DNA of 32,083 nucleotides from Methanosarcinaceae archaeon (lineage in GTDB: Archaea > Halobacteriota > Methanosarcinia > Methanosarcinales > Methanosarcinaceae): NCBI GenBank assembly GCA_020055655.1, contig JAIPUR010000029.1:1-32083 (forward strand), given 5' to 3'. This document shows, one piece after another, positions 1 to 31,101 of this stretch (positions are counted from its first letter, which is position 1; the number at the start of each line of letters is the position of its first letter). Made by a program: the position numbers and the translations under genes. Below the pieces are notes generated by a model, which had not been told where the DNA came from, searched no databases, and worked only from the letters and a program-made list of their open reading frames with translations.

Positions 1-425
1 GAAAGAATATTGTAGATAACCTTTCCACTGAAATCTGCTATCTCTTTTAACTCCGGAATTGCCTGAAGGATATCATCTGCTGAGAATTGAGAACTTACAG
101 CACCTGTTCTGTAATCGATCTTACTGGCAATGGTTCCACCAGTTGAAAGAATGGAGACTTTAGGAAGATCGGATTTTCGCTTTACCTTTGTCTCAGTTTT
201 TTCAGCTGCTTTCACGGAAACTTGCATATCCTCTTTTAGCTGTACTACTGAAACTTTGGCACCTCGTGGATCAATGCCAGCATTATAACCACTTACCATC
301 TTGATCACAATGTGTCCGGTGCTGCTGGGCATTGCTATGCCTTCATATTCAACACCATCTTTCTCGACTTTTATCTGGTCGCCTTCTTCAAATCTTCTGC
401 TATTCAACATACAATTCTTTGCCAT
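1..425 (-). CDS. gatD: Glu-tRNA(Gln) amidotransferase subunit D, N-terminal part (partial)
   Basis: Reading the minus strand from an ATG at 425 gives about 141 residues that run off the left edge. GatD is the asparaginase-like subunit of the archaeal GatDE enzyme. It releases ammonia from Gln so that GatE can convert Glu-tRNA(Gln) to Gln-tRNA(Gln). The N-terminus ([20 protein letters not shown]) has the small beta-barrel that precedes the asparaginase domain in GatD. The asparaginase threonine motif STGGTIAS follows at about residue 95. A GAAGG six bases upstream favours ATG 425 over the internal ATG at 410. The gene lies 29 bases downstream of argH on the same strand, so the two are probably cotranscribed. 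The catalytic domain beyond the first motif is outside the window. Confidence 0.93.
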
Positions 426-6257: not shown

Positions 6258-6653
6258 ATGTACTTAAATAAATATATAAGCTACAAGCATAGTGCAGAAG
6301 ATATCCTCAATTTCCTCTACGAGATTAAGTATGTTATTTTACTATATGTTATCGGAGATTACTTTACAACATCACATGCACTTGGAACTGGAATCGGATT
6401 TGAAGAAAATGGATTTTTAGCAGGGCTCATGTCCGAATATGGAATATGGTCACTTGCAGCTGTGAAGGTAGGAATTATTGCCATAGTATATTGGAATTAC
6501 AGAACAATAAAATCATCGAATAACCCAGCTAATGATCCACTCTGGTCTTTCTCGAAAACGGGACTCGGTCTTTTGGGGCTTGTACTTGTAGTTAACAACC
6601 TGATGGTAATTGGAATGAGAATTAGTCTTTTCGAATATATAGGATTCTTATGA
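6258..6653 (+). CDS. Small polytopic membrane protein (DUF5658-like)
   Basis: The 131-residue protein has about three or four membrane segments (roughly 23-40, 65-82, 96-115 and a C-terminal one). The first segment contains GDYFTTSHALGTG followed by EENGF, resembling the D-Y-x-T-T ... E-x-N pattern of DUF5658-type membrane proteins. No function is known. There is no Shine-Dalgarno ahead of ATG 6258. A TATA-like TTAAAATAAATA near 6207-6218 suggests a short leader. The 3' end overlaps the convergent phoU-like gene by six bases. A second small polytopic protein lies beside the other phoU-like gene at 19642-20076. Confidence 0.7.
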   Translation: MYLNKYISYKHSAEDILNFLYEIKYVILLYVIGDYFTTSHALGTGIGFEENGFLAGLMSEYGIWSLAAVKVGIIAIVYWNYRTIKSSNNPANDPLWSFSKTGLGLLGLVLVVNNLMVIGMRISLFEYIGFL

Positions 6654-7679
6654 TGCGGAATCCTTCAATCTTTTTGCATGCATATTTATGATGATCTCTG
6701 CAATATCAGCACTATACTCTGAAATACGCTGAAAACTTAGAAGAATATTTCTTTTTTGCTCACCCGGGAAGCTGTTATTATCACTCTGATTATGATAAAT
6801 ACGTGAGATAATATCAACATTCTTGTTCGACCGCTCTATTATGCGGTTTGCAAAATCAGAATCTACATCATACAAAGCATTTACAGAATCACTGAAAATA
6901 TCCAGGGATAGATTTCCAAGTTGAATGATCTCATCACAGCTATCAATTGGAGAATCCATCTCAATAATATTTTGTGCAATTCTCTGTACATGATCACCAA
7001 CCCTTTCCATGCTTTTTGTTACAAGTCGATAACCCAGACAATCTTTTGACGAATCTATACCTATTTTTTGTGCTAGGGAAGAATTATCAACTGAAGCTTT
7101 TAGTTGTCTTACAGTTAACAGATAAAATCTATCTACGTCATCATCACGTTGTATTACATCATAGGCAAGTTCCATGTCATTATCCATCAGTGCTATCAAT
7201 ACATCCTCGTGCATTGAAGAAATAATCCTGAACATGGTATTAATAGACTTTTCAAGGGAAATATCTTTGTAATTCAACAGGCTTTGAAGCACCAATTTAT
7301 TCCTTGATTCTTCAACTATCTCTATTCCTATCAATCTTCTTCTTGCAGATTCCTTTATAAATTTTCGCTCATCAGCTGTAAAACCTTTTGTAGAAACAAT
7401 ACTTATGACATCATACCCAATCAAGTAATTAGATACAAGAACCCTAAAATCATCTCCCGGGTTCCCGGTCAGTGATATCTCAACTTGCGAATGTTGTGGC
7501 GTTAAACAATCAATTGATTCTGCAGCTAACATAAGCGAAGAGTTATCATTTGACGAGAGAACTAAAGCATCTCCTGCAGACAAACCATTTTCCCGTACCC
7601 ATTTTATTGGAAGTGACACTATATACGTAGAACCACCCGTCAACTGGATCTTCCTTTTTTCAGAATTTATAGCAACCAA
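6648..7679 (-). CDS. AbrB-PhoU fusion protein 1
   Basis: This 343-residue protein has an N-terminal SpoVT/AbrB-type DNA-binding or dimerisation domain (RKIQLTGGSTYIVSLPIKW, residues 9-27) and a PhoU-like helical bundle (about 100-340). PhoU metal-binding motifs are visible: RDDDVDR (178-184) and ERVGDH (225-230). Proteins of this build are found beside phosphate transport genes in archaea and are presumed to be regulators. The only sensible start is TTG at 7679 with AAAGG just upstream; no ATG occurs until deep inside. It lies 22 bases behind the pilin-like gene, so the two are probably cotranscribed, which is unusual for a phosphate regulator. Confidence 0.88.
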   Translation of the reverse strand: MVAINSEKRKIQLTGGSTYIVSLPIKWVRENGLSAGDALVLSSNDNSSLMLAAESIDCLTPQHSQVEISLTGNPGDDFRVLVSNYLIGYDVISIVSTKGFTADERKFIKESARRRLIGIEIVEESRNKLVLQSLLNYKDISLEKSINTMFRIISSMHEDVLIALMDNDMELAYDVIQRDDDVDRFYLLTVRQLKASVDNSSLAQKIGIDSSKDCLGYRLVTKSMERVGDHVQRIAQNIIEMDSPIDSCDEIIQLGNLSLDIFSDSVNALYDVDSDFANRIIERSNKNVDIISRIYHNQSDNNSFPGEQKRNILLSFQRISEYSADIAEIIINMHAKRLKDSAS

Positions 7680-8929: not shown

Positions 8930-9625
8930 ATGATTACTTTTATGTCTTCAATGGTACTGACAAGTTTCGGATTAAAAAACGTACCTCCTAACGTGGTACT
9001 ACTTGTGGAGGAGGATATAGGCGACATTAAGAGCATCTTTTTTCAAAAGATTGCATCTGATGCCTTAAAATCCGGTAAAAAAGTGCACTATATATCAACG
9101 AGAGACTCGAAAATAGCCATTTCGGAGCAACTCAAAAAGTATGGAATCAACGAAAAAGCAGACAACTTTACTGTGCTTGGAAATTTTGTAGATCCCATTA
9201 CTTTGCTTGACATATGCCACAGGAGAAAAAATCTCTGTACCAAGATCTATGCAGGAACGGATTACTCACTACACAATGTTGCTGATGCAGATGTTTGCAT
9301 CATAGACATGTTCTCCTCCCTTTTCATACATGAAGATGTGGATGTTCTGACAGAAGCTCTGAATTCTTTAATGAATATCAGCCGGGAAGCAAATATCACC
9401 TTCCTCCTCTCAGCGGACATGGGAATCCTCCCTGAAAGATCTGAAAAAATTGTTCGATCCATGGTTGATGGAATTATCCAGTTCAGAACAGAATATCTCG
9501 GGGGAAAGATCAACCGTTTCATCAATATTCCTAAAATGAAAGGTAGTATCCCCATGAACAAGATGATAGCCTACAATGTCACAAGCCAGGGAATAATGAT
9601 GGATAACAGAGAAAGGGTTGGCTAG
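8930..9625 (+). CDS. FlaH/KaiC-like RecA-fold protein with degenerate P-loop
   Basis: The 231-residue protein follows the archaeal FlaH pattern: strand, P-loop, helix (28-45), then GKKVHYISTRDS (49-60) and a Walker B-like VCIIDMFSS (122-130). The C-terminal half resembles the FlaH tail (residues 181-222). The P-loop reads EDIGDIKS (28-35), where FlaH has a G-D-x-G-T-G-K-S type loop. Two of the three glycines are lost but Lys34 and Ser35 remain, so nucleotide may be bound without normal turnover. FlaH docks on the FlaI-FlaJ motor in archaella. A matching role with the TadA/TadC proteins next door is plausible but inferred. ATGs at 8942 and 8951 are possible alternative starts. Confidence 0.7.
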   Translation: MITFMSSMVLTSFGLKNVPPNVVLLVEEDIGDIKSIFFQKIASDALKSGKKVHYISTRDSKIAISEQLKKYGINEKADNFTVLGNFVDPITLLDICHRRKNLCTKIYAGTDYSLHNVADADVCIIDMFSSLFIHEDVDVLTEALNSLMNISREANITFLLSADMGILPERSEKIVRSMVDGIIQFRTEYLGGKINRFINIPKMKGSIPMNKMIAYNVTSQGIMMDNRERVG

Positions 9626-9683: not shown

Positions 9684-11057
9684 TTACTCATCAAATCCAG
9701 AAACTATTATTGTAGCAGTTCCTGTTGATTCTCCAACATTCGCAGTTACAATATATGTACCGGATTCGGAACCTGGAATTGGAGTTACCACTACAGTTCC
9801 ATCTTCTTCGGTCATAGAACTTGTCACTGTACCTGAAGGAGTGATGGTCAGCTTAACAAAAGCATCTGCTGCCGGATTTCCATCCATATCAGTTACATTG
9901 AAAATAATTGGTTCCTGAAGTGGAATACCGCCAAATACCTCCTGGGAATCACCTGACATGACGCCTATCACGTATTCACCACCTGCACCTGCCGGGAGCA
10001 GTAGTGTCACACATGCAACATAACTCAGAGCAATTAGTATTGAGGAATGCTTAAAACCATGCTTGATCTCACCTTCAGTTATCTGGCCTATGATAAGACC
10101 CCCAAATAGAGCATTGAGTATTATCATATGGAAAAAGCCGCGTTCAAAGTTGATGTCGGAAAGTCCCGCACCTCCGAGCATCTCCATACCCACACCCTGA
10201 ATTAACGGAAGCAGGGATGTTGAGAGAATATAGGTTAACATAATGATGATACCCTGTGCCAGATAGAAGATTACGATATATTGCTTCAGATTCGATTCTT
10301 TCTCTTTTTGCAGATTTATCACAGATCTCATGTCTTCTGAAGTACGAAAGAGAAGATCTGCAACGTTACCACCGGTGTATGCAGCCTGAACAACTATATC
10401 AATATACCTTGCCACCAGCCGGCTTTTCATTGACTGGGACATCCTGTGCATGGATTCCTCAAAGGACTTACCCAGAACCATTGAAGATGCTGCATCCTGT
10501 GAATTCTTAGTTATCACACCCAGATTTGTTTTTGAGAGATTTACAAAGCCTTTTACAGGGTCGATACCACCCCTCATCAGTTCAGAAAGTTTGTACAGTA
10601 ACTCACTGAAAGCCACTTCCCTTTTTTGTAGAAGTTTTTTCTGGATATAAGAATCAATGGAATAGGGAATAAGTGCCACAAGTATAGCAAAGACCATTAT
10701 ATGGTCCAGATCATCCTTGGGTTCCTCATCATCAGGTTCAGGTTCCAGCTCTTCCTCGTCAACAGGAAGAACTTCACCCCTTTCTGCAGCTTCTGCTGCC
10801 TCCATTTCTGCAACAAGAGCTTCATATGCAGCCTGTTTTGCAGCTACCTCATCATTTATAGGTGCACCATCTACCCCTGGATCATCGGTCACAAATGAAT
10901 GACCTGTGAGAACTGCAGCAAGCAGTATCATCAGTGCAAGAAATATCGGAATTCCCAAAGTAAAATACTCACGTTTTATATCATAACGCAAGGTCAATAT
11001 CTGCACATGGCGTTGTAGCTGCAAACGATACTTTTCAAGCTTTCCCGCGATATTCAT
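9684..11057 (-). CDS. tadC2: TadC/FlaJ-like pilus platform protein 2 with C-terminal Ig-like domain
   Basis: This 457-residue membrane protein is a type II/IV secretion F-domain platform. A cytoplasmic T2SSF core (about 140-260) contains AYTGGNVADLLFRTSEDMRS. Membrane helices lie near 33-52, 118-136, 262-288, 308-332 and 343-362. Two additions stand out. A Glu/Ala-rich loop of about 65 residues (53-117) separates the first two helices. The last 90 residues after the final helix form an Ig-like, invasin-type beta domain with DMDGNPAADAFVKLTI. Both are expected outside the cell. The start overlaps the tadC1 stop as ATGA (11054-11057), so translation is coupled. It works with the ATPase encoded at 11972-14158. 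Confidence 0.88.
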   Translation of the reverse strand: MNIAGKLEKYRLQLQRHVQILTLRYDIKREYFTLGIPIFLALMILLAAVLTGHSFVTDDPGVDGAPINDEVAAKQAAYEALVAEMEAAEAAERGEVLPVDEEELEPEPDDEEPKDDLDHIMVFAILVALIPYSIDSYIQKKLLQKREVAFSELLYKLSELMRGGIDPVKGFVNLSKTNLGVITKNSQDAASSMVLGKSFEESMHRMSQSMKSRLVARYIDIVVQAAYTGGNVADLLFRTSEDMRSVINLQKEKESNLKQYIVIFYLAQGIIIMLTYILSTSLLPLIQGVGMEMLGGAGLSDINFERGFFHMIILNALFGGLIIGQITEGEIKHGFKHSSILIALSYVACVTLLLPAGAGGEYVIGVMSGDSQEVFGGIPLQEPIIFNVTDMDGNPAADAFVKLTITPSGTVTSSMTEEDGTVVVTPIPGSESGTYIVTANVGESTGTATIIVSGFDE

Positions 11058-11971
11058 AATGTGCTCCTAGAATATTTCATCCACAACAGAATAAGGAAAA
11101 CAATATTTATGAACGGCAGAGCAAAGTAAACAAAGAACTGGAACATCTGCTTTGCCGTCAATGGCCCTAAGTCAATACCAAGCGCACTTGTAACTACGAT
11201 CATAAGTACAACAAGTACTACGCTCATTACAACACCACTCAGATAACCTTCACCATAAACACCCAGAGAATCCACGAACTCCTGCTGCATCTTTTTTCGC
11301 ATGTCCATGAGTTCATTGGATTTCATTTCAAGATATGTACGCAGACCTCCACCTGACTGCATGGAATTGGCAAGATCAATACATATAGCTCTGAGAGATT
11401 CAGAAGAGGTATTTCGAATAAGATGATTCATGGCGCTGACAGCATCTTCACCCAGAACATCAACACGATACATCACTTTACCAAATTCGATTGAAATGTC
11501 ACCATAATCCTCTATCGAAACTTTCCTGATAACATCTATGGGAGAAGAACCCGCACTCGCAAGAATGGTCATGTAACCCAGTGTGAAAGGAAGATCATGT
11601 TCAATGTTCATGTTCTTATTCGAGATCTTATTGTAGAGCATGAATGGAAAACCACTCACAGTGAGCATAAAGGTCAGAAAGGTCAGGACACTTATGTAAA
11701 CTAATGGACTTGAAGAGTTACGGAAAAAGATAATAGAGAATATAAATACAGCCAATGAGGCAAAAGCTGCCGTCACGACTGCCAGGGAAATGAACATACC
11801 AGAAGTTAAGACCATATCAGCCTGATAAAGAGACTTTGCAACATCATCCTGTGGCTTTTTATCTATATATTTACCAAATACATAGCAAAACATTTTGTAT
11901 TTTTCTATGTATTTGTTAGGTTTTTTTTCATTGAATGCCTCGTGGACATCAATATCCTGAGTCTTTACCAT
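11054..11971 (-). CDS. tadC1: TadC/FlaJ-like pilus platform protein 1
   Basis: The 305-residue membrane protein is of the archaeal FlaJ/TadC type. It has a cytoplasmic N-terminus, paired helices near 57-78 and 88-112, a T2SSF core (about 120-235, with LPFTLGYMTILASAGSSPID and DLANSMQSGGGLRTYLE) and two C-terminal helices (about 243-263 and 275-298). It should form the membrane platform on which pilin-like subunits are assembled, probably as a heteromer with TadC2. The ATG follows the tadA stop with no gap (TAA then ATG), so the two are almost certainly translated from one message. Confidence 0.9.
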   Translation of the reverse strand: MVKTQDIDVHEAFNEKKPNKYIEKYKMFCYVFGKYIDKKPQDDVAKSLYQADMVLTSGMFISLAVVTAAFASLAVFIFSIIFFRNSSSPLVYISVLTFLTFMLTVSGFPFMLYNKISNKNMNIEHDLPFTLGYMTILASAGSSPIDVIRKVSIEDYGDISIEFGKVMYRVDVLGEDAVSAMNHLIRNTSSESLRAICIDLANSMQSGGGLRTYLEMKSNELMDMRKKMQQEFVDSLGVYGEGYLSGVVMSVVLVVLMIVVTSALGIDLGPLTAKQMFQFFVYFALPFINIVFLILLWMKYSRSTL

Positions 11972-14158
11972 TTAGTGCACCGACTCCATAAGTTCGTCTT
12001 TTTGCCTGGAGTATTTCCTGATAGCTTTGGCAACTTCCTCGTATTCCGTTATTCCGTCATTTGCAAGACCTTCAAGATATTTGCCTCTAACATCCATTTC
12101 CCTGATCAGCTCTTCCTGTTCGATACCAAATTCATCATTAATGGCATCAAAAAGTGCGCTACTGCCGCTGAACTCATACTCATCCGTTACAGGATTCCAT
12201 TTGAAGACCGGGTTAGTGATCAGGTCACCACGTTCAGGATCAAGTTCCACCACCTCTACAATCCTCAAAGCACGCCTGAGGAAGTGTTCACCGACCTTGA
12301 TCATGGAATTGAATATGACCATATCCACACTGGCGAAGAGGTTTCTCGGCACATTCATAGGTTCAGATTCGACCCTTGAAAGCAGTTCATGAATTGAACC
12401 TGCGTGAATTGTTCCCATACAGGGGTGACCTACAGAGATAGCCTGGAAAAGAGTGCCTGCTTCAGCACCACGAACCTCACCCACAACTATGTATTCAGGC
12501 CTCTGCCTCAAAGCAGCTTTTAGCAGGTCGAAAAGTTCTATATCTCCTGCAGCCTTGCCACCATCACTTCCACCAAAACCGGCTCTTGTGATAGATTGGG
12601 TCCAGTTGGGGTGCATGAGGTTCATTTCAGCAGTATCTTCGATGGATACGATCTTGTATTCAGGAGGGATGAATGCACCAAGTGCATTGAGAGTGGTTGT
12701 CTTACCGGAAGCTGTTCCACCTGCTGCCAGTACAGAACGCTTGTACTCGATCATCAACCAGAAATAAGCCAGTACCGTTGAGTCGTAGGTCTTGTAATTC
12801 ATCAGGTCGATGCAGGAAACAGGATTGGACTTGAAACGCCTGATGGTGAATGTAGAACCTCTTTTTGTAACTTCCTTACCCAATGTCAGATTTGCACGAC
12901 TCCCATCCACAAGAGTGGCATCCCTGATGGGTTCCAGTACTGATATGTGCCTGCCTGCTGCCTGTGCCATCCTCATGACGAAGTTGTTGAGTTCGATTTC
13001 CCCATAGATCACGTCTGTAGCAATAGAACCATAAACCCTGTGATTCACATAGAGAGGAGTAAAAGGACCGTTACAAGTGACATCCTCTAGATAAGGGTCT
13101 TTCATCAGGATATCCATCCTGTCAAAGCCCATGTATTTTTTATGTAGATAGTAGAAGAATTTATCTTTTTGGGTATCACTTATCTTCAGCCGATAAATAT
13201 CCAATATCAGCTCAAACCTGTCCCTTAAAGCTGCAGGACGATCCTCCTCTTCCACAAGCAATATTTCAGAGTGTGCCATCTTATCAAAAGCGTTCTCTAT
13301 GATTCTCAGAGTCTCTTGTTCAGTTTCACTCATGGGAGGTTCCAGGCACCGATAAAGCAATGATTCTCCGTCAAATTCGATATGAACATACTGGGTTTCT
13401 GGAGTTACTTCATAGGTGATATTGACTTCTTTTTGAGTGACTCCGGGAGCAGGGATTGAAAGTTCACCGACAACGAATTCTATCTCTTCAATGGTTTCAG
13501 GTGCAGGGGTTATTAGTTGTTCTATCTTTTTCAGGAGAGGCGATAATCTGGACTCTTTTTCTAATTCCCCTTCCTGCTCATAATCAGATAAAATGCTAGC
13601 ATCATCAATTATTTCATCAGTGTTTGTCTTCTTTTTCCCCATTTTGAGACAAAATTTTGATTTCTTTTTTGATTTATCTTTTGACTTCTTTTTTGAAGAC
13701 TTGCCATCCGATATTTCATTTTCTTCTGAAAACGTGTCCTGCTTTTCTATGTTTTCTGCAGATTCCTTAGATTTCCCGGATTTCTTTTTCTTTTTAAGAC
13801 CGAGGCTTAATTTTTTCTTTTTAGATGGTTTTTCTTTTTTTTCAATAACATCTATAAGATCCTCATCTAAAGAAAGGTCATCAACAACTGCATTGTCATC
13901 CGTACTTTCTTCAGAGTCTTCCCGCACAGGAAGTGAAATATCCAGATCATCATCCCCGGTGATCTCATCCGGCAGAAGTGGAGAAATGTCTTTACTTGTA
14001 TCTTCACCATCATCCGGCCTGAAAGAAGTTTCAGCTTCAGCCCCAACTAGATGAACAAGTTCTGGCTCTTCAGAAGTACCAGTTTCACCTGATGGTATAG
14101 ATGGTTCTGATGTGGTTTTCTTTCTGCCTAATTTTGGTTTTAATTTAAGTTTAACCAA
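11972..14158 (-). CDS. tadA: Type IV pilus/secretion assembly ATPase (TadA/GspE family) with long charged N-terminus
   Basis: This 728-residue hexameric motor ATPase powers assembly of pilin-like fibres. Walker A GGTASGKTTT is at 480-489, the Asp box IEDTAE at 506-511, Walker B VVGEVRGAEA at 558-567 and the His box GTIHAGS at 582-588. Before the N2 domain lies an extension of about 210 residues rich in Asp/Glu and in Lys runs (KKKKLSLGLKKKKK near 113-126), predicted disordered and absent from plain family members. GGAGG at 14166-14170, inside the end of pstA, is seven bases from TTG 14158, which decides the start. The gene overlaps the pstA stop by eight bases. It is thus translationally coupled to the phosphate transporter genes. 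Confidence 0.93.
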   Translation of the reverse strand: MVKLKLKPKLGRKKTTSEPSIPSGETGTSEEPELVHLVGAEAETSFRPDDGEDTSKDISPLLPDEITGDDDLDISLPVREDSEESTDDNAVVDDLSLDEDLIDVIEKKEKPSKKKKLSLGLKKKKKSGKSKESAENIEKQDTFSEENEISDGKSSKKKSKDKSKKKSKFCLKMGKKKTNTDEIIDDASILSDYEQEGELEKESRLSPLLKKIEQLITPAPETIEEIEFVVGELSIPAPGVTQKEVNITYEVTPETQYVHIEFDGESLLYRCLEPPMSETEQETLRIIENAFDKMAHSEILLVEEEDRPAALRDRFELILDIYRLKISDTQKDKFFYYLHKKYMGFDRMDILMKDPYLEDVTCNGPFTPLYVNHRVYGSIATDVIYGEIELNNFVMRMAQAAGRHISVLEPIRDATLVDGSRANLTLGKEVTKRGSTFTIRRFKSNPVSCIDLMNYKTYDSTVLAYFWLMIEYKRSVLAAGGTASGKTTTLNALGAFIPPEYKIVSIEDTAEMNLMHPNWTQSITRAGFGGSDGGKAAGDIELFDLLKAALRQRPEYIVVGEVRGAEAGTLFQAISVGHPCMGTIHAGSIHELLSRVESEPMNVPRNLFASVDMVIFNSMIKVGEHFLRRALRIVEVVELDPERGDLITNPVFKWNPVTDEYEFSGSSALFDAINDEFGIEQEELIREMDVRGKYLEGLANDGITEYEEVAKAIRKYSRQKDELMESVH

Positions 14159-15044
14159 TTCTACGCCTCCATACAAAAAATCGTGCAAGAGCGTTGAGTA
14201 TCATTACAATAGCTATCAAAACAAATGCTGCAGCAAAACTTTCTGATCTATCCACCATATGTGGAAATTCGAATGCATGATAAACTGTAATAGGGAGAGC
14301 TGCAATCAAATCTTGAAATGGATATACTTTCACACCAAAAATAAGCTTGTCACTCGCTGCAATCTTAAATTCAGGCATAAATTGACTGTATCCTGCAGTC
14401 AAAATGACAACTGCAGATTCTTCGGCAGCTCTGCCAACACTAAGTACAAAACCAGTTAAAATTCCATTTAAAGCATAAGGAATTGTTATGTGTCTAATGG
14501 TCTCCCACTTATTTGCACCAAGCGCATAGCTTGCATGCTCTAATTCATGAGGTACTGTATCAATAGCAACTTCTGTTGCTCTTTCCAGAACAGGCAATAT
14601 TAAAATTGCAAGTGCAATTATTCCCGATATCATGGAAAAACCGCCAGTCACTGTCCTCAAAATGTATACTAGAAACAAAAGGCCAAATATTCCAAGAACT
14701 ATTGAAGGAGTACCAGACATAACATCTAGCATAAAGCTAAAAAAGCTGACTATTCTTCCCTTTTTAGCATATTTTTTAAGGTAGATAGCTGTACCCACAG
14801 CAAATGGAGTTGCTAGTAATGTTGAACCTAATGATAAAATGATTGTGCCTACTATAGCATTTGCAAGTCCTCCACCAAACCCTTTCGACTCTGACTCAGA
14901 AGTAAAAATATTTTCAAGGCTCAAACTTGGAATAGCTTCCCATGTAATACGACCAAGTATAAAGAAGAGAATGACTAAAGTTAAAGTGACTGCTGCGTAA
15001 GAAATATTTTTAAAAATGAATCCTTCCACTTTTCTTCTATTCAT
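14151..15044 (-). CDS. pstA: Phosphate ABC transporter permease PstA
   Basis: The 297-residue inner permease of the Pst importer has about six membrane helices. The EAA loop that contacts the ATPase is ELEHASYALGANKWETIR (about 177-194). GTPSIVLGIFGLLFLVY is the typical PstA/PstC helix segment. The ATG overlaps the pstC stop as ATGA (15041-15044). Its 3' end carries the Shine-Dalgarno and start of tadA, joining the importer genes to the pilus genes. No pstB follows, although pstB normally comes straight after pstA. Confidence 0.95.
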   Translation of the reverse strand: MNRRKVEGFIFKNISYAAVTLTLVILFFILGRITWEAIPSLSLENIFTSESESKGFGGGLANAIVGTIILSLGSTLLATPFAVGTAIYLKKYAKKGRIVSFFSFMLDVMSGTPSIVLGIFGLLFLVYILRTVTGGFSMISGIIALAILILPVLERATEVAIDTVPHELEHASYALGANKWETIRHITIPYALNGILTGFVLSVGRAAEESAVVILTAGYSQFMPEFKIAASDKLIFGVKVYPFQDLIAALPITVYHAFEFPHMVDRSESFAAAFVLIAIVMILNALARFFVWRRRIG

Positions 15045-15949
15045 AATCTACCACCAATTCTGCGTGCAGCCGCAACAAATATTATTTCCATAGTAAACAA
15101 AACTGCAGCAACGGCAAACAGAGCACTACGCGGCTCATCCATTGCAGAGTAGTACCCAATGTCATTGAGTATTTTTGATGTCATAGCGTATCCAGTATCA
15201 AGTATTGAACCTGGAACATGAGCAACATTTCCAAGAAGCATTACTATTGCCATAGTCTCACCCATTGCCCGCATCATACCAAGAATTGTTGCAGAGAGTA
15301 TTCCACCAGATGCGCTTGGTAAAACCACTTTTCTAATTGTTTCCCATTGAGTTGAACCAAGAGCAAATGATGCTTCCCTATACTCAGAAGGAACAGACCT
15401 CATAGCATCTTCAGATAATGAAGCAATTGTTGGTAAAATCATAATAGCCAGAACAGATGATGCCAGAAATACACCATTTCCCCTACTTGGAGTTAAATCA
15501 GCAAATATTGGTATAAAACTAAACATGTTGATTAAGGGATCCAAATAGTATTGAAAAAAATTTTCAAGAACTAAAAGACCAAATATTCCATAAACTACAG
15601 AGGGAATACCTACGAGTAATTCAATAAATGGTCTGATTGCAGATGCTATTTTTTGGGGTGCATATTCTGAAAGGAAAATTGCTGTGAAAACGCTTACAGG
15701 AACGGCTAGAGTTAAGCTCATAGCCGTCATCACAAGAGTGCCTATTATAAAAATACGAACCCCGTAAATTCCATCATTATAGTTCCAGACCGTGCCAGTA
15801 AGAAAGTTTATGAGCCCTTTACCAAAAAGCACAGGTGCTGCTGTGTAAAAAATAAAACCTATAAAGTAAACTGCTATGAATGTAGTTATTAAAGCGCAGA
15901 AAATAAAGAAGTAGTGAGGAAGATTATCGTCTATTGATCTATGATTCAT
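15041..15949 (-). CDS. pstC: Phosphate ABC transporter permease PstC
   Basis: The 302-residue permease partners PstA in phosphate uptake. The EAA loop is EYREASFALGSTQWETIR, and GIPSVVYGIFGLLVL matches the conserved PstC helix. The open frame reaches back to 16024, but that extension would be read through the hairpin at 15990-16013. GGTGA eight bases ahead of ATG 15949 (MNHRSIDDN) marks the true start. It lies 90 bases behind pstS, with a terminator-like hairpin between them, and is coupled to pstA by an ATGA overlap. Confidence 0.95.
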   Translation of the reverse strand: MNHRSIDDNLPHYFFIFCALITTFIAVYFIGFIFYTAAPVLFGKGLINFLTGTVWNYNDGIYGVRIFIIGTLVMTAMSLTLAVPVSVFTAIFLSEYAPQKIASAIRPFIELLVGIPSVVYGIFGLLVLENFFQYYLDPLINMFSFIPIFADLTPSRGNGVFLASSVLAIMILPTIASLSEDAMRSVPSEYREASFALGSTQWETIRKVVLPSASGGILSATILGMMRAMGETMAIVMLLGNVAHVPGSILDTGYAMTSKILNDIGYYSAMDEPRSALFAVAAVLFTMEIIFVAAARRIGGRL

Positions 15950-15981
15950 TTCAGTCTCACCTAAAAAAAAACGTGTTTTCA

Positions 15982-16013
15982 AAAAAAAAGACTTGTACCT
16001 GAAGGTACAAGTC
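15982..16013 (-). terminator. Internal terminator/attenuator between pstS and pstC
   Basis: On the minus strand GACTTGTACC and GGTACAAGTC form a perfect 10-bp stem with a four-base loop (15990-16013), followed at once by a run of nine T. It starts about 27 bases behind the pstS stop. It should stop or pause most transcripts, so pstS is made in excess over the permeases. It may also protect the pstS 3' end. Confidence 0.75.
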
Positions 16014-16039
16014 TGACTTGCCATCTATCAACTATTAAT

Positions 16040-16999
16040 TTAAGCAATCTCGTTGAGAGCGAAGTAACCTACTGCTGTGAAGTGTTCGGTTGCTCCTGGA
16101 GACTGTGCAAAGGTAATGAATGCCTGCTGCATTGCAGTTGGCTCACCATTTGTGAGGTAGTTGAGTGGTCTTGTAAGGTCGTGGATGTAGTAGTCGTTGT
16201 CAGCGTTGAACTCGTCCATGATTGCGTCTGCTGTGATGTCAGCTGATGCAAATGAGTGACCATCTTCATCGTCGATACCCATGACGAATACATCGGATGC
16301 ATCATCTGCGAATCCGTAGTCAACGAATGCAATACCAGTTAAGTCATCCTGTACTGCTGCAAGTACACCTGCATTACCTACTGCGCCTTCTACAGCTGCG
16401 TCGATGTCAGATCCAATGAAGTCTACGAATGTGTCTTCTGTACCGGATGCTTCAGCTCTCTGGATTGGGTTTACTGTAACAGTGTTAACAGTTGTTGAAC
16501 CGTTGACGTAAAGGTCTACAAGGTCAGTCATTGTGATGTTGTAAGTTCCAAGGTCGCCCTTAAGATCGTTGTTTGCAATGATGACTACAGCACTGCCGCC
16601 GATCTGGTGTGTCTGGATGTCTGGGTATTTTGCAAGTTCTTTGTCTTTTACTGCTCTGGAAGCTGCACCAATGTCGCTGATTCCCATTGCAACAGATGAT
16701 ACACCAGCACCGGATCCACCGCCCTGTACTGTTACTTTTATACCCTGGTGGTCTTCCATGTATGCTTCTGCGAGGAGTTCGGAAACTGGCTGAACAGTTG
16801 AGCTACCAGCGATAAGGAGTTCGGTTGATGCTGCACTTGTTGCATCACCTACACTTGCACCGTCAGCTACGTCTGATGAGAATGATCCCATGATTGTTCC
16901 TACTGCTGCTGCACCAGCGATTGCAACTACCACTAAAACGAGGGTTGCAACGATAGGTGAAACACCAGCTTCATCGTTGAATATTTTCTTTAAGTTCAT
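16040..16999 (-). CDS. pstS: Phosphate-binding protein PstS with type IV pilin-like N-terminus
   Basis: The 319-residue phosphate-binding protein feeds the PstCA importer. Phosphate-contact motifs are AGSSTVQPVSE (64-74), GGGSGAG (93-99), DIGAASR (109-115) and Arg181 with SGT (185-187). The N-terminus, MNLKKIFNDEAGVSPIVATL with a helix continuing to about residue 37, is not a lipoprotein or Sec signal. It has the basic head, E-A-G-V-S-P junction and uninterrupted hydrophobic helix of archaeal type IV pilins, with cleavage expected near Gly12-Val13. A Ser/Asp/Ala-rich linker (40-59) then leads to the binding domain. The neighbouring pilin (7702-8808) shares the same head pattern. Expression probably starts at the TATA box at 17079-17087. 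Confidence 0.95.
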   Translation of the reverse strand: MNLKKIFNDEAGVSPIVATLVLVVVAIAGAAAVGTIMGSFSSDVADGASVGDATSAASTELLIAGSSTVQPVSELLAEAYMEDHQGIKVTVQGGGSGAGVSSVAMGISDIGAASRAVKDKELAKYPDIQTHQIGGSAVVIIANNDLKGDLGTYNITMTDLVDLYVNGSTTVNTVTVNPIQRAEASGTEDTFVDFIGSDIDAAVEGAVGNAGVLAAVQDDLTGIAFVDYGFADDASDVFVMGIDDEDGHSFASADITADAIMDEFNADNDYYIHDLTRPLNYLTNGEPTAMQQAFITFAQSPGATEHFTAVGYFALNEIA

Positions 17000-17078
17000 G
17001 TTTATCGTACACCAATTTATTTTATGTTCCTATTTGCGAGCGGGTTTTAATCGCTCTGAGTCTTAGAAGGAATGGTTG

Positions 17079-17087
17079 ATATATAAT
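17079..17087 (-). promoter_or_regulatory. TATA box for the pst-tad operon
   Basis: The minus strand reads ATTATATAT here and predicts transcription from about 17055, leaving a leader of roughly 55 bases to the pstS ATG. A second TATA-like run lies at 17103-17109. The gap 17000-17281 holds no gene. Confidence 0.4.
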
Positions 17088-17140
17088 CGTTGTACAAATG
17101 ACATATATAGCAATGAAAAACTATAGATTTGTGATTTATC

Positions 17141-17281: not shown

Positions 17282-19339
17282 TTACTTTGATATCAGAGTC
17301 GAAACTATAGCAAACACTGCCAGTGCAATTACTATAATTACTACATACAGGTAGTTTTCTACAGCATCTATAGCTGCATTTTCAGCAACACCAAATAATG
17401 ATGCTATGGAATCAAGTGTTTTTCCAAATGTACTACCTACAAACTTATGGATCTTTTCAAATGTCCCACCAATTGAATCGAGTATTTTGCTGAAAAATGA
17501 AGGAGTTGCATCTGCATCTTCTACACCAAGAGAATATTCAGAGCTTACCAGTTCAGATTCATCATCTGTTGAATGTAAGATATCTTCATCATTTTCAAGT
17601 TCCGATTCAGGATCTACGATCGGAATAGGAACTGATACAGTGTCATTTACCCATTTACCAGTTGAAAGGTCGAGATGCTGCTGATGTTCAGCGCCTGCTA
17701 CAAAAAATGATGAGCGAAGCTCACCCTCATAATTTGGTATTGAGCGGAATTCACATGTTGCATAAGGAAGATCAGGAGATTCATCTGAGCTTACCTGATA
17801 ATCAAAAGCAAATGTTTCACCTGGAGCCAGAAGAACACCGTCTACTGAGAAATTCAACGACGAATTTTGCCTTGTAACTGACCAATCCCACTCTGAAAGA
17901 GGTTTTTCCCCAGCAAGACTTTCCTCCAGACTATTACCAACATAAGTTACATACTCGGGCACATGGTCACATACTTTTACCCATGCAGCACGATTACCAT
18001 GGTTTTTAACTTCAAGAGTTATAGTGTAATCATCACCTGTTTGAGAAAGCGATTTCTTTAAGCTGACATCTGCACCGTTTACAGTTAATGATTGAGAGTC
18101 AGACTTCCATGAAAAGTCCTTGCCAAAGAAATTAACATCAACTTTTACAGGCTGAAATGTATATTCACCTTGTCTTATCGGAATCAACCTCTGTCCAAGG
18201 TAATATTGACCTTCGGGAGTTATATGACCATAGTCCCCTGATTCATGAACCTCATTTATCAACAGATTCCTAGGAATCTCGGAAAAGGAAACAACCGGAT
18301 TTGAAATATCATAGAGACCTATGTTGTATATATTGGTCCTGAGAAAAGCAGTTTCCCATGCATTCCATATTTCAAAATCCGAGCTTTGCCACGTCGATGT
18401 CTTGCGGTCCAGAGAACGTGAGAACCAGGAAGTCATATTAATAGTACTGGAACTTGAGCCATCTTCAAGAATCTGGCTGGTAACTAACTCAAGCTCAACT
18501 TTAAGTTCAGGATCAGTACAATGAAAGATCATCGAGTCATCAGATTCGGACTCATAGTATGCACCCTTGATATCATAACCACCGGCCGATGCATTAACTG
18601 CATAATTCAATTCATAAGGAGATGTCCTGCCATCCCACTTAGGAGCTACAACTGTGAAATTCAGTTTTTTGGATTCACCGACCTCCAGACACCCGATGTT
18701 CTTTTTCATGACCTTATCAAAGTATTCGAACTCGCCCTTTTCCCGTAATCTGAAATCATTCAGATCAACATTAATGAGAACACTTTCTACCCAGGCATCT
18801 CCACTGTTCTTCACTTCCAGGAATACCCTTTTTTCTTCCCCGGGAGCGTACTGGTCCTCTGCCACGGATACACCATCAACCTCATCTGACTCTGAAGAAA
18901 AAGTAATCTCAAGTTCGGGTTTTCCCCTCTTGAATATCTCAAAACTTGCAGAAGGTGTGCTATCACCGGCTTGTGTTATGCCAGTTAATACAACCTTTAT
19001 GTCATGGTCCCAATGAAACCATTTATCCTCATCTGCAGCTTCCAGAAAAAGGAATTCACTTCTGACCTCGCCTTCAGCTCTCTGAGAAGAAAGAAGAACC
19101 GACTTAAGGTCATCGTTAAAATCATCCGGCCTGAATTTATATTCAACTTCATCCACTATAATGTAACCCAGTTTTCCCCATTGAGCAGTAACAGTTCCAA
19201 CACTGACCCATTCAACATCATCATCAAGATCGTCACAATCACAAAAACTGCTTGCCGATACAAGGGGCATAAAAATGAGTATGAAAGCAAGAGCGACAAT
19301 AAAGCTCCAACTAAATTTAAAATAAGACGTTTTTATCAT
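17282..19339 (-). CDS. Large membrane-anchored surface protein (S-layer/CARDB-like domains)
   Basis: The 685-residue protein has an N-terminal secretion signal (hydrophobic 13-28, then SASSFCDCDD) and one C-terminal membrane helix (about 661-682). The outside portion is beta-rich, with repeated Ig-like domains resembling COG1361/CARDB modules (LEVKNSGDAWVESVLINVDL and LEVKNHGNRAAWVKVCDHV). A Ser/Asp/Glu-rich stalk lies near 575-615 and many N-glycosylation sequons are present. No enzymatic motif is visible. The Shine-Dalgarno GGGAGTGTGAT fixes the ATG at 19339. It follows the small two-helix gene by 21 bases and ends 282 bases before pstS. A role as receptor, cell-wall stalk or scaffold for the phosphate/pilus system is only inferred from position. 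Confidence 0.75.
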   Translation of the reverse strand: MIKTSYFKFSWSFIVALAFILIFMPLVSASSFCDCDDLDDDVEWVSVGTVTAQWGKLGYIIVDEVEYKFRPDDFNDDLKSVLLSSQRAEGEVRSEFLFLEAADEDKWFHWDHDIKVVLTGITQAGDSTPSASFEIFKRGKPELEITFSSESDEVDGVSVAEDQYAPGEEKRVFLEVKNSGDAWVESVLINVDLNDFRLREKGEFEYFDKVMKKNIGCLEVGESKKLNFTVVAPKWDGRTSPYELNYAVNASAGGYDIKGAYYESESDDSMIFHCTDPELKVELELVTSQILEDGSSSSTINMTSWFSRSLDRKTSTWQSSDFEIWNAWETAFLRTNIYNIGLYDISNPVVSFSEIPRNLLINEVHESGDYGHITPEGQYYLGQRLIPIRQGEYTFQPVKVDVNFFGKDFSWKSDSQSLTVNGADVSLKKSLSQTGDDYTITLEVKNHGNRAAWVKVCDHVPEYVTYVGNSLEESLAGEKPLSEWDWSVTRQNSSLNFSVDGVLLAPGETFAFDYQVSSDESPDLPYATCEFRSIPNYEGELRSSFFVAGAEHQQHLDLSTGKWVNDTVSVPIPIVDPESELENDEDILHSTDDESELVSSEYSLGVEDADATPSFFSKILDSIGGTFEKIHKFVGSTFGKTLDSIASLFGVAENAAIDAVENYLYVVIIVIALAVFAIVSTLISK

Positions 19340-19641: not shown

Positions 19642-20076
19642 TCAATTTTTTTTCAATACCTCGTACCCGAAAACCGAAAGTGCCACTATAACAGATGTCA
19701 TCGATAACATGAATATCATATTCGAATAGGTCTCTTTCAAGACCAGCCAGGATAAACCTCCCAAAACATGTGTGACACTCATCAGCAAAATGATTAAAAC
19801 CCCTATAGGATAGATATCCTCATCTTTCAGCAATTTCAATATTATGTACCCCATCACATAATAGAACAACACAGTCAAAGAAAGATATGGTAGTACCATA
19901 TTGTGCTTGACAGCAAACACAAGAGTTGGACTGAATTCATGAGCAAGAATATTTTCTATGCTTCCCGCAAAATAGAATGTCAGTGAATAGTCAATTATCA
20001 CTGAAAAGCAAAGAAAAAGGGGAATGGCCTTATAATTGCGATAGATCGATCGCATGCTCTGCAATATTTGAAGCAT
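19642..20076 (-). CDS. Four-helix membrane protein next to phoU-like gene 2
   Basis: The 144-residue protein has four membrane helices (about 18-38, 60-82, 88-108 and 116-138). The first contains IDYSLTFYFAGS followed by EFSP, loosely like the D-Y ... E-x pattern of the small membrane protein at 6258-6653. No function is known. The frame overlaps the 3' end of phoU-like gene 2 by 47 bases from ATG 20076, or by 26 bases from ATG 20055, so translational coupling is likely. A link to phosphate sensing is suggested only by position. Confidence 0.68.
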   Translation of the reverse strand: MLQILQSMRSIYRNYKAIPLFLCFSVIIDYSLTFYFAGSIENILAHEFSPTLVFAVKHNMVLPYLSLTVLFYYVMGYIILKLLKDEDIYPIGVLIILLMSVTHVLGGLSWLVLKETYSNMIFMLSMTSVIVALSVFGYEVLKKN

Positions 20077-21004
20077 AATCCCTTATCCTGCTGAAACTAT
20101 CGATTATTATCTCCAGGGAACCATCTGTACTAAGCTGACCTGCAATGACCAATTTACTATTGAATTCTTCGGCCTTGGTGAGAACATCATTAGCAAGAGA
20201 ATTATTGGATTCACGTAGTGATTCCATAGCATCCATGAAAATTGTCTGTAACTCATGGCAGATTTCGGACATTGATGCACGGGCATCATCTGACATTTCA
20301 GTGTACTCCACATGCAAAGCGATTTTGGAAATGTGATCACCTATACGCTCAACATTTCCTGCAGCCAGACGATGGTAAAATGCCTGTATCATACTGAGGT
20401 TATCATTTTTTGATAGTCTTTGAAAATTCAATCTTTCAACATATTGTTTTGAAACAAGCAGGAACATTCGGTCAATATCGTCATCCCTGTTGATTATATC
20501 TTTACAGATAGAAGGATCATTTCCATCAAAGGCCATGATCAGTTCATCAAACATCAGATAAACAAGGGAGGACATACGTTTGAGACCTTTTTGAATAGTG
20601 AATTCATCAGTATCAAGGTAATTTTGGATAACAATGCCTGATTTCATATTCTCAACGATCTCAAAGCCCACCAGATGTTTACAGAGATCTTTTACTTCGT
20701 TCCGTATTTCCTTTGAAATATTCGGACCCTGAATTTCTATGGTATTATACTTCCCAACTATGTACAAACCAATAATATCCCTTTTCAATTGCTCCACATT
20801 TTTATCAGCTTTTATCTTTCGGATATCTTTGCTTATTTTTATAGCAGGTGGCATGATAAGTAAAGAGCCATCCTCATTGTAAAGCATAGAAACAGGAGAA
20901 CCAGATTCCAGTTGAGCCATTGTAGCCCATTTTTTAGGTAATGTTACAATGTATGTAGACTTACCTGTAATTTGCACCTTTCTCGTATCCATTCTATATA
21001 CCAT
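20030..21004 (-). CDS. AbrB-PhoU fusion protein 2
   Basis: This 324-residue paralogue of the protein at 6648-7679 has an N-terminal AbrB/SpoVT domain (RKVQITGKSTYIVTLPKKW, residues 8-26). A PhoU-like bundle follows, with RDDDIDR (173-179) and ERIGDH (219-224) as probable metal sites. It is expected to regulate phosphate transport or pho genes in the cytosol. The start may be ATG 21004 or ATG 20992; neither has a strong Shine-Dalgarno. The upstream gap (21005-21194) is AT rich with several TATA-like runs and dyads. It is followed by an overlapping membrane protein gene and lies about 4 kb upstream of pstS on the same strand. Confidence 0.88.
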   Translation of the reverse strand: MVYRMDTRKVQITGKSTYIVTLPKKWATMAQLESGSPVSMLYNEDGSLLIMPPAIKISKDIRKIKADKNVEQLKRDIIGLYIVGKYNTIEIQGPNISKEIRNEVKDLCKHLVGFEIVENMKSGIVIQNYLDTDEFTIQKGLKRMSSLVYLMFDELIMAFDGNDPSICKDIINRDDDIDRMFLLVSKQYVERLNFQRLSKNDNLSMIQAFYHRLAAGNVERIGDHISKIALHVEYTEMSDDARASMSEICHELQTIFMDAMESLRESNNSLANDVLTKAEEFNSKLVIAGQLSTDGSLEIIIDSFSRIRDYASNIAEHAIDLSQL

Positions 21005-29079: not shown

Positions 29080-31101
29080 CTAGAAGATACCAGCGCTAAT
29101 GAACAGAGATGCGAACAGGATAGCTACCATGTTCACTACTTTGATCAGAGCGTTAAGAGCTGGTCCGGATGTGTCCTTGAAGGGGTCACCGACAGTGTCA
29201 CCAACGATAGCTGCTTTGTGAGCTTCTGAACCCTTTCCACCGTGTTCTCCGTCTTCGATAAGCTTCTTTGCATTATCCCATGCTCCACCACCATTGTCCA
29301 TTGTAAGTGCGAGCAAAAGTCCACATACAATAATACCGATGAGAAGACCACCAAGAGCTGCAGGACCTAGTACAATTCCAACTAAGAGCGGTGTACCAAT
29401 AGCAAGGATACCGGGAATTGCCATTTCACGAATAGCTGCTGCTGTTACAATGTCCACACACTTACCATATTCTGGCTTTCCGGTCCCTTCCATGATACCT
29501 GGAATTTCACGGAACTGACGGCGAACTTCGTTAACTATCTCAAAAGCTGCTTTACCTACAGCACGCATTGTAACTGCACTGAAGAGGAATGGAAGCAGTC
29601 CTCCGATGAAGAGACCTACAAGAACGAGTGGGTCAGCAAGACTAAGGTTTGCATTGCTAAGGTCTACCTTGTGGGTGTAATCAGCGAAGAGTGCCAGAGC
29701 ACCAAGAGCTGCTGAACCTATTGCATATCCTTTTGTGACTGCCTTTGTTGTGTTACCTACTGCATCAAGCGCATCGGTAATACTACGGACGTTTGAAGGC
29801 ATACCTGCCATTTCAGCAATACCACCGGCATTGTCAGTGATAGGACCGTATGAGTCAAGAGCAACTATCATACCTGTGGTTGAGAGCATTGCAGCAGCTG
29901 CAATTGCTATACCATAGATGCCTATTGAAGGATCTGTTGCTCCACCTACAACGAAGTATGAGCTGAGAATACCCATAACAATTATCACTACAGGAAGAGC
30001 TGTACTTTCAAAACCAATCGCAAGACCGGATATCACGTTTGTACCTGCACCTGTTTCAGATGAAGCTGCAATAGTCTTGACCGGACGGAAAGATGTTGAA
30101 GTATAATATTCTGTGAATACAACCATAAGCACCATTATAATGATACCAACTATAGCTGCATAGAAGAACTTGATATCGCCCATAAGGGAATCTGTTACGA
30201 AATAGAAAGCTGCAATACTCAATATAGCAGAAACTGCTACACCTTTGTACAATGCTTTCATGATCTTACCATCGCTTCCGACCTTCACGAAGAAGATGGA
30301 TATGATGGATGCAAAGATAGCCACTGAACCGAGAATGAGTGGGAAAAGAATTGCGTTTGGAAATGTGTCAATAATGAATGAACCAAGAAGCATTGATGCG
30401 AGAACTGTAACTACGTATGTCTCAAAGAGGTCAGCACCCATACCAGCACAGTCACCTACATTATCACCTACGTTGTCAGCAATTACACCGGCATTACGTG
30501 GATCATCTTCTGGAATTCCGGCTTCGATCTTACCTACAAGATCAGCACCGACATCCGCTGCCTTTGTGAAGATACCTCCACCAACCCTTGCGAAAAGACT
30601 GATAAGACTGGCACCAAAACCAAATCCTATTACAAGGTCAACATCACCGTAAAGGATGTAGAAACCACTTGTACCAAGAAGTGCAAGGCCAACCACTGCA
30701 AGACCTGTTACAGCCCCACCACGGAATGCAACGGACATTGCCTTTTGCAATCCTTTGGATGCTGCGTGTGCAGTTCTTACGTTTGCTCTTACAGAAACGT
30801 TCATACCTATGTATCCTGCTGCTGCGGAACTTATAGCACCGACAAGGAAACCGATTGCGATCTTTCCACCTTGTGGTAGGAGAACAAAGATCATTGCAGC
30901 GAGAATAATAGCTACTATTGCGATTGTTTTATACTGACGATTCAAGTACGCCATCGCACCTTCCTGGATAGCGCCTGAAATTTCCTGCATCTTCTCTGAG
31001 CCAGCTCCTTCTTTAAGGACACCGCGCGCGAAAATACCAGCAAATATCAAACTAACTAGACCAGCAAGAGGGGCAAGATAAATTAAAAATTCAGATACCA
31101 T
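29080..31101 (-). CDS. hppA: Membrane-bound pyrophosphatase, K+-independent proton-pumping type
   Basis: This 673-residue integral enzyme with about 16 helices couples pyrophosphate hydrolysis to ion pumping. Catalytic motifs are [11 protein letters not shown] (183-193), DNVGDNVGD (209-217) and [11 protein letters not shown] near the C-terminus. In [10 protein letters not shown] the position that decides potassium dependence is Lys453, with Thr456 three residues on. K+-dependent enzymes have Ala there, so this should be the K+-independent, H+-pumping class. AGAGGAG sits upstream of the ATG at 31101. A TATA box on the minus strand at 31234-31242 gives a leader of about 100 bases. The gene is monocistronic, with its own terminator at 29013-29056. 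Confidence 0.97.

Follow-up and report, generated by a model that had tools for sequence, protein, structure and literature searches.

Our analysis suggests that the PstS protein of this locus belongs to a dedicated phosphate 'bindosome', in which a phosphate-binding protein with a pilin-type N-terminus would have a type IV pilus-like machine of its own for its assembly and would feed a PstC-PstA permease that draws on PstB in trans for power. We favour this reading with reasonable rather than high confidence. The window (the whole stretch of 32,083 nucleotides that was analysed) derives from a Methanosarcinaceae genome of 2.48 Mb in 48 contigs. From pstS, the gene order is pstC, pstA, a TadA/VirB11-type ATPase, two TadC platform proteins, a divergent KaiC/ArlH-like ATPase, a large pilin and an AbrB-PhoU protein, and upstream of pstS lie a surface protein, a small membrane protein and a second AbrB-PhoU protein (Table 1).

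Table 1. Features of the pstS-Tad locus in the window, parts of the PstS protein by residue, and pilin-type PstS paralogs found in related genomes (a slash marks a predicted cut)
Feature	Position	Strand	Basis or remark
PstS, pilin-type, 319 residues	16040..16999	-	PF12849, alignment, AF2
PstS class III signal	residues 1-12		
PstS H-domain helix	residues 13-38		
PstS disordered linker	residues ~39-57		
PstS periplasmic-binding-protein domain	residues 58-319		
Prepilin-type N-terminus of PstS, first 40 codons	16880..16999	-	predicted cut G12/V13
pstC permease	15041..16024	-	TIGR02138 296.5 bits, cut-off 196.45
pstA permease	14151..15044	-	TIGR00974 256.6 bits, cut-off 193.45
TadA/VirB11-type assembly ATPase	11972..14188	-	long charged N-terminal extension
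TadC1 platform protein (T2SSF)	11054..11971	-	orthologue co-occurs with class III PstS
TadC2 platform protein (T2SSF)	9684..11057	-	C-terminal Ig-like (Big_1-like) domain
KaiC/ArlH-like ATPase	8930..9625	+	PF06745 46 bits; divergent orientation, yet conserved in cluster
Large class III pilin, 368 residues	7702..8808	-	Pilin_N at cut-off
AbrB(MazE-like)-PhoU regulator 1	6648..7679	-	
AbrB(MazE-like)-PhoU regulator 2	20030..21004	-	
Surface protein, CARDB/DUF11-like domains and C-terminal membrane anchor	17282..19339	-	linked in most Methanosarcinales loci
Small membrane protein, no assigned family	19642..20076	-	conserved in cluster, Methanomicrobiales included
Second pilin-type PstS paralogs	L034:17162-18241; L041:736-1809; L058:6684-7805; L064:13787-14911		

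The N-terminal sequence of PstS, as translated from its minus-strand open reading frame, is MNLKKIFNDEAGVSPIVATLVLVVVAIAGAAAVGTIMGSF.... The first-pass annotation had read this region as the start of a type IV pilin, with a short basic head, a cleavage junction followed by an unbroken hydrophobic helix, and neither a lipobox cysteine nor a twin arginine. The first 40 residues indeed contain no Cys and no twin Arg, and residues 13-37 are free of any charge, so that about 20 uninterrupted hydrophobic residues directly follow the predicted cut; a helix is predicted at residues 15-36. The head is short, as described, but it is basic only in part, since K4 and K5 are accompanied by D9 and E10. The cut between G12 and V13 is predicted by alignment to orthologues that have a textbook site, such as ..DTRA/VSP in ANME-2 and ..NDKA/VSP in Methanosarcina. 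Sites in the orthologues read RA/VSP, KA/VSP or QA/VSP, with KRA/VSP in the ANME-1 orthologue, and the window protein has EAG/VSP, in which the -2 residue is an Ala without charge.

The pilin-profile search that had been proposed as a check gave a divided answer. The window PstS itself falls below both cut-offs (Pilin_N, 12 bits against 25.2; TIGR02537, 15.4 bits against 20), but TIGR02537 matches 27 of its 31 relatives, with a best E of 4.4e-7; the best E of Pilin_N among the relatives is 0.0037. When the N-terminal 49 residues alone were used as a query against 60 genomes, nearly all of the proteins retrieved beyond PstS were archaeal pilins, either short or large, such as MDLKKLFNDNKAVSPVVGVVLMVAITVILAAAIG, and six of the seven that were checked in Pfam scored 44-65 bits with Pilin_N; one retrieved protein, L176, is a clear false match. 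The only class III candidates that a rule scan returned for the entire window of 32 kb were PstS, the large pilin and one internal segment of PstA; this result, together with the conservation of the H-domain in the 31 relatives, indicates that the PstS N-terminus is more than a chance hydrophobic stretch. The genome encodes one prepilin peptidase over the cut-off (PF01478, 55.7 bits; G000:C3:49677-49958). The prediction of a class III (prepilin-type) signal on PstS is well supported, the evidence being strong for the family and weak by curated profiles for the window protein taken alone. Those sub-threshold scores would fit an ordinary Sec-secreted or uncleaved PstS whose likeness to pilins and whose neighbourhood are accidental; given the family-wide motif, the retrieval of pilins, and the synteny over several orders and co-occurrence described below, we regard such an accident as highly improbable.

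Conservation of PstS is concentrated in the same region. Among the 31 relatives, mean pairwise identity is 92.5% over residues 13-38 and 90.5% over residues 13-45, against 46.6% in the binding domain and 46% in the linker, and the conserved part reaches residue 45, past the hydrophobic stretch. Where the amino acids agree, synonymous codon differences are equally frequent in the H-domain and in the binding domain (0.49 and 0.49), which rules out recent common ancestry as the cause and indicates that the conservation of the H-domain is selective. The lipobox PstS paralogs display the reverse pattern: across 20 canonical paralogs from the same order, identity is 45% in the signal and 72% in the mature domain, and a ..GC lipobox is present in all 20 as well as in the canonical PstS of this genome. 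As far as sequence can tell, the pilin-type pattern is not what would be expected of a cleaved Sec signal or of a plain anchor, and is what would be expected of a helix packed on other helices. Thus, the family conservation, the pilins retrieved by the N-terminus alone and the contrast with the lipobox paralogs uphold the prepilin-type N-terminus predicted for PstS in the first-pass annotation. Several Methanolobus genomes have, beside a PhoU gene and outside the machine operon, a second PstS paralog of the pilin type whose C-terminal half has diverged strongly.

Beyond the linker, the computations show that PstS has the fold of a phosphate-binding protein, with predicted phosphate-loop residues. 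PF12849 matches it with 71.3 bits (cut-off 27), and the TIGR02136 subfamily model gives 112 bits, below its cut-off of 206.6. The AF2 model consists of a helix at residues 15-36, a low-confidence linker to about residue 55 and a confident binding domain (mean pLDDT 86.9). The best structural matches of this domain are to phosphate-binding proteins, with Z scores of 25.9 (4jwo), 25.3 (1twy) and 24.7 (the phosphate-bound 4gd5). The phosphate-loop elements S/T, S and R..SGT are conserved, and S66, R181, S185 and G186 are among the ligand-loop residues that are invariant in the 31 relatives.

The association between PstS and the pilus-like machine extends well beyond this genome. The core of pstS-pstC-pstA with tadA, tadC1, tadC2, the KaiC-like gene and the pilin recurs in Methanolobus, other Methanosarcinaceae, ANME-2 MAGs and one ANME-1 genome, and also in Methanomicrobiales (Methanoculleus, Methanolinea, Methanofollis and Methanomicrobiaceae) and one Methanocellales-like genome. 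In Methanomicrobiales the order of the genes is rearranged, with the genes still together; a few MAGs have a locus that is split or truncated where a contig ends. Both PstS and TadC1 exist in diverged form in seven genomes that belong to another family of the order. Of 186 genomes of the order, 34 have both a class III PstS and the TadC1 orthologue and 148 have neither, with TadC1 only in two and PstS only in two (Fisher p about 2e-32, a value that ignores relatedness); within the genus the corresponding counts for 27 genomes are 17 with both, eight with neither, two with TadC1 only and none with PstS only. TadC1 without PstS was rejected as a genuine state, both cases being contigs that end inside the locus, and the two genomes with PstS only (G024 and G039) are not counted as exceptions because they are incomplete MAGs.

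The linkage of PstS to the machine is well supported. The first-pass annotation had proposed PstS as a direct client for the co-encoded machine of TadA and TadC, and this proposal gains support, as a genome-based prediction, from the synteny over several orders and from the near-perfect co-occurrence of class III PstS and the orthologous TadC (34 of 36 cases among 186 genomes). The genome encodes seven T2SSE-type ATPases, and a machine other than the linked one could therefore use PstS; co-inheritance favours the linked machine.

The locus pilin is predicted to contain a long helix (residues 8-53) followed by all-beta domains, and it matches the archaellum filament subunit of H. salinarum (Halobacterium) with a Z score of 9.0 and an rmsd of 2.7 over 146 aligned residues, covering residues 8-353. 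In a rule scan of 20 loci, PstS and the pilin of about 370 residues were the recurrent class III candidates, and no small PilA-type pilin was seen at these 20 loci. It is possible, though on the doubtful side, that these archaea make a true extracellular filament with PstS as its major subunit, in effect a pilus that binds phosphate, with a shaft made of the PstS helix bundle that is capped or primed by the large pilin; such filaments would carry arrays of phosphate-binding sites beyond the S-layer and return their catch to PstCA with the shared PstB. In the ANME-2-like MAG G024, one open reading frame (L045:6002-7294) joins residues ~1-125 of PstC in frame to the ectodomain of the locus pilin; it was set aside as evidence, a deletion or an assembly join being likely.

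PstS could also be a tethered binding protein that forms no polymer: its helix would anchor it beside PstCA, the machine would make an ordinary adhesive pilus out of the large pilin, and all the genes would belong to one phosphate regulon. The AbrB-PhoU genes that flank the locus are in keeping with such a regulon, the linker of about 20 residues would suit a tethered binding protein, and the short PstS helix contrasts with that of the pilin, which is long and continuous, as is typical for subunits of filaments. A mere anchor, however, need not be 92.5% identical against 47% elsewhere in the protein, nor need it keep a prepilin site. Moreover, the lone PstS relative (L061) of G154, a genome without the orthologous machine, has lost the A-V-S-P motif and kept the hydrophobic helix, as expected if the motif matters only in the presence of the machine. 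We therefore consider a simple tether unlikely. Genome G148 also contains a PstS relative (L060) that has lost the A-V-S-P motif and kept the hydrophobic helix, and this relative lies away from its machine; both L060 and L061 come from the Methanosarcinaceae genus g13.

The permease genes of the locus are not accompanied by an ATPase gene of the usual kind, since no PstB was found in the window's locus. In this genome a single PstB exceeds the cut-off; it is on contig C34, within a complete canonical pstSCAB-phoU operon. Exactly one PstB is present in 13 of 14 relatives that carry the cluster (the exception has three), and in some genomes the canonical pst operon adjoins the cluster. The cluster PstC keeps the EAA coupling loop and the RAMGET motif, and the cluster PstA keeps an EAA-like loop, with RAAEES replacing R..GET. 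The retention of the EAA loops and of RAMGET in PstC points to transport driven by ATP. ABC importers are known to share ATPases, and the likeliest reading is that the cluster PstC-PstA would borrow PstB in trans. One could instead suppose that PstS-PstC-PstA transports nothing and acts as a sensor, reporting phosphate to the pilus machine or to AbrB-PhoU and so switching adhesion. Such a role would agree with a locus that has PhoU regulators and a KaiC-like ATPase but no PstB, in genomes with one PstB, and with the altered RAAEES motif of PstA. It sits poorly with the conserved coupling loops and RAMGET of PstC and with the known ability of ABC importers to share ATPases, and we judge it improbable.

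In the bindosome reading, PstS would be made with a prepilin-type signal, and the single prepilin peptidase of the genome would remove the 12-residue head. The retained hydrophobic helix would let TadA, TadC1 and TadC2 assemble PstS and the large pilin, and the product would be a surface oligomer or a short pseudopilus outside the membrane. Bound phosphate would then be handed to the co-encoded PstC-PstA permease, which, without an ATPase of its own, would use the single PstB of the canonical operon, and the AbrB-PhoU proteins would control expression of the locus. By analogy with the sugar-binding proteins of Sulfolobus, the pilin-type PstS of Methanolobus and of many related methane-cycling archaea is probably assembled on the surface.

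In the Bas system of Sulfolobus, substrate-binding proteins with class III signals need a type IV pilus (T4P)-type ATPase and a platform protein for surface display and uptake (PMC2910488, PMC4187195). The locus described here has linked and co-inherited genes for a predicted class III binding protein, a T4P-type ATPase and platform proteins, and would thereby resemble the Bas bindosome (GlcS and AraS with BasEF and BasABC). Unlike Bas, its predicted ligand is phosphate, its hosts are methanogens and ANME archaea, its pstS, permease and machine genes lie in one conserved locus, and it has two TadC proteins and a large pilin where Bas has BasABC. Filing the locus under Bas was rejected, as its TadA scores 190.4 bits with the BasE model NF053672, for which the cut-off is 1000. 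The analogy is functional only, because TadA is not a BasE orthologue, and the locus appears to follow the same logic in an independent arrangement.

The canonical PstSCAB-PhoU importer, which this genome also encodes, shares with the locus the PstS fold, the ligand-loop motifs, and PstC and PstA proteins that score over the equivalog cut-offs; it differs in that the locus PstS has a pilin-type N-terminus and no lipobox, and in that the locus has a linked pilus machine and no PstB. The type IV pili of euryarchaeal clade 2 have, like this locus, a VirB11-type ATPase, often two TadC genes, a KaiC-like ATPase and large pilins (PMC4858521), but here a binding protein occupies the place expected of a small major pilin. 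The main text of the archaeal T4P census that describes them (Makarova et al. 2016, PMC4858521) contains no mention of phosphate, Pst or PhoU.

According to reviews, euryarchaea do have class III binding proteins, and bindosomes may occur widely. Our literature search found no paper that joins PstS with a pilin-type signal and no description of a pstSCA-Tad-pilin-AbrB-PhoU locus. Individual proteins of the family may be included in the table of Szabo et al. 2007, which reportedly lists class III substrate-binding proteins. Bindosome studies so far have dealt with sugars in Sulfolobus only. The present locus bears on how a pilus-like machine aids nutrient uptake, and it is a possible addition to the means by which methane-producing and methane-oxidising archaea scavenge phosphate; if PstS is assembled on the surface, this would be a new way of doing so. 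A further question that it poses is that of a pair of ABC permease proteins with a shared ATPase. Genetic tools exist for some of the host organisms (Methanosarcinales), and since the binding protein, permease and machine form one co-inherited unit in these partly tractable hosts, the client and its machine are directly testable.

The region upstream of pstS contains two conserved elements. A hairpin, CAGAGCGATTAAAACCCGCTC, lies between a TATA-like box and the pstS start (17038-17058, minus strand). It occurs as a single copy in the genome, all five of its pairs are kept in 17 sequences (the window and 16 relatives), and one compensatory change, from C-G to U-A, is observed. No match to the hairpin was found in Rfam; it is a possible phosphate-related regulatory element. 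Upstream of the hairpin, at 17060-17110 (minus strand), the pattern CTATATACAT..TTGTA..ATTATATAT is conserved across the genus and could be a promoter together with an AbrB-PhoU operator.

Other features of the window include the two PhoU proteins that flank the locus, each of which has an AbrB/MazE-like N-terminal domain, and the Ig-like domain at the C-terminus of TadC2 (Big_1, 26.9 bits, below the cut-off), which is unusual in a platform protein. A membrane pyrophosphatase (H_PPase, 905 bits) is encoded at 29080-31101 on the minus strand, about 12 kb from pstS; its function is phosphate-related, and its presence there is probably coincidental.
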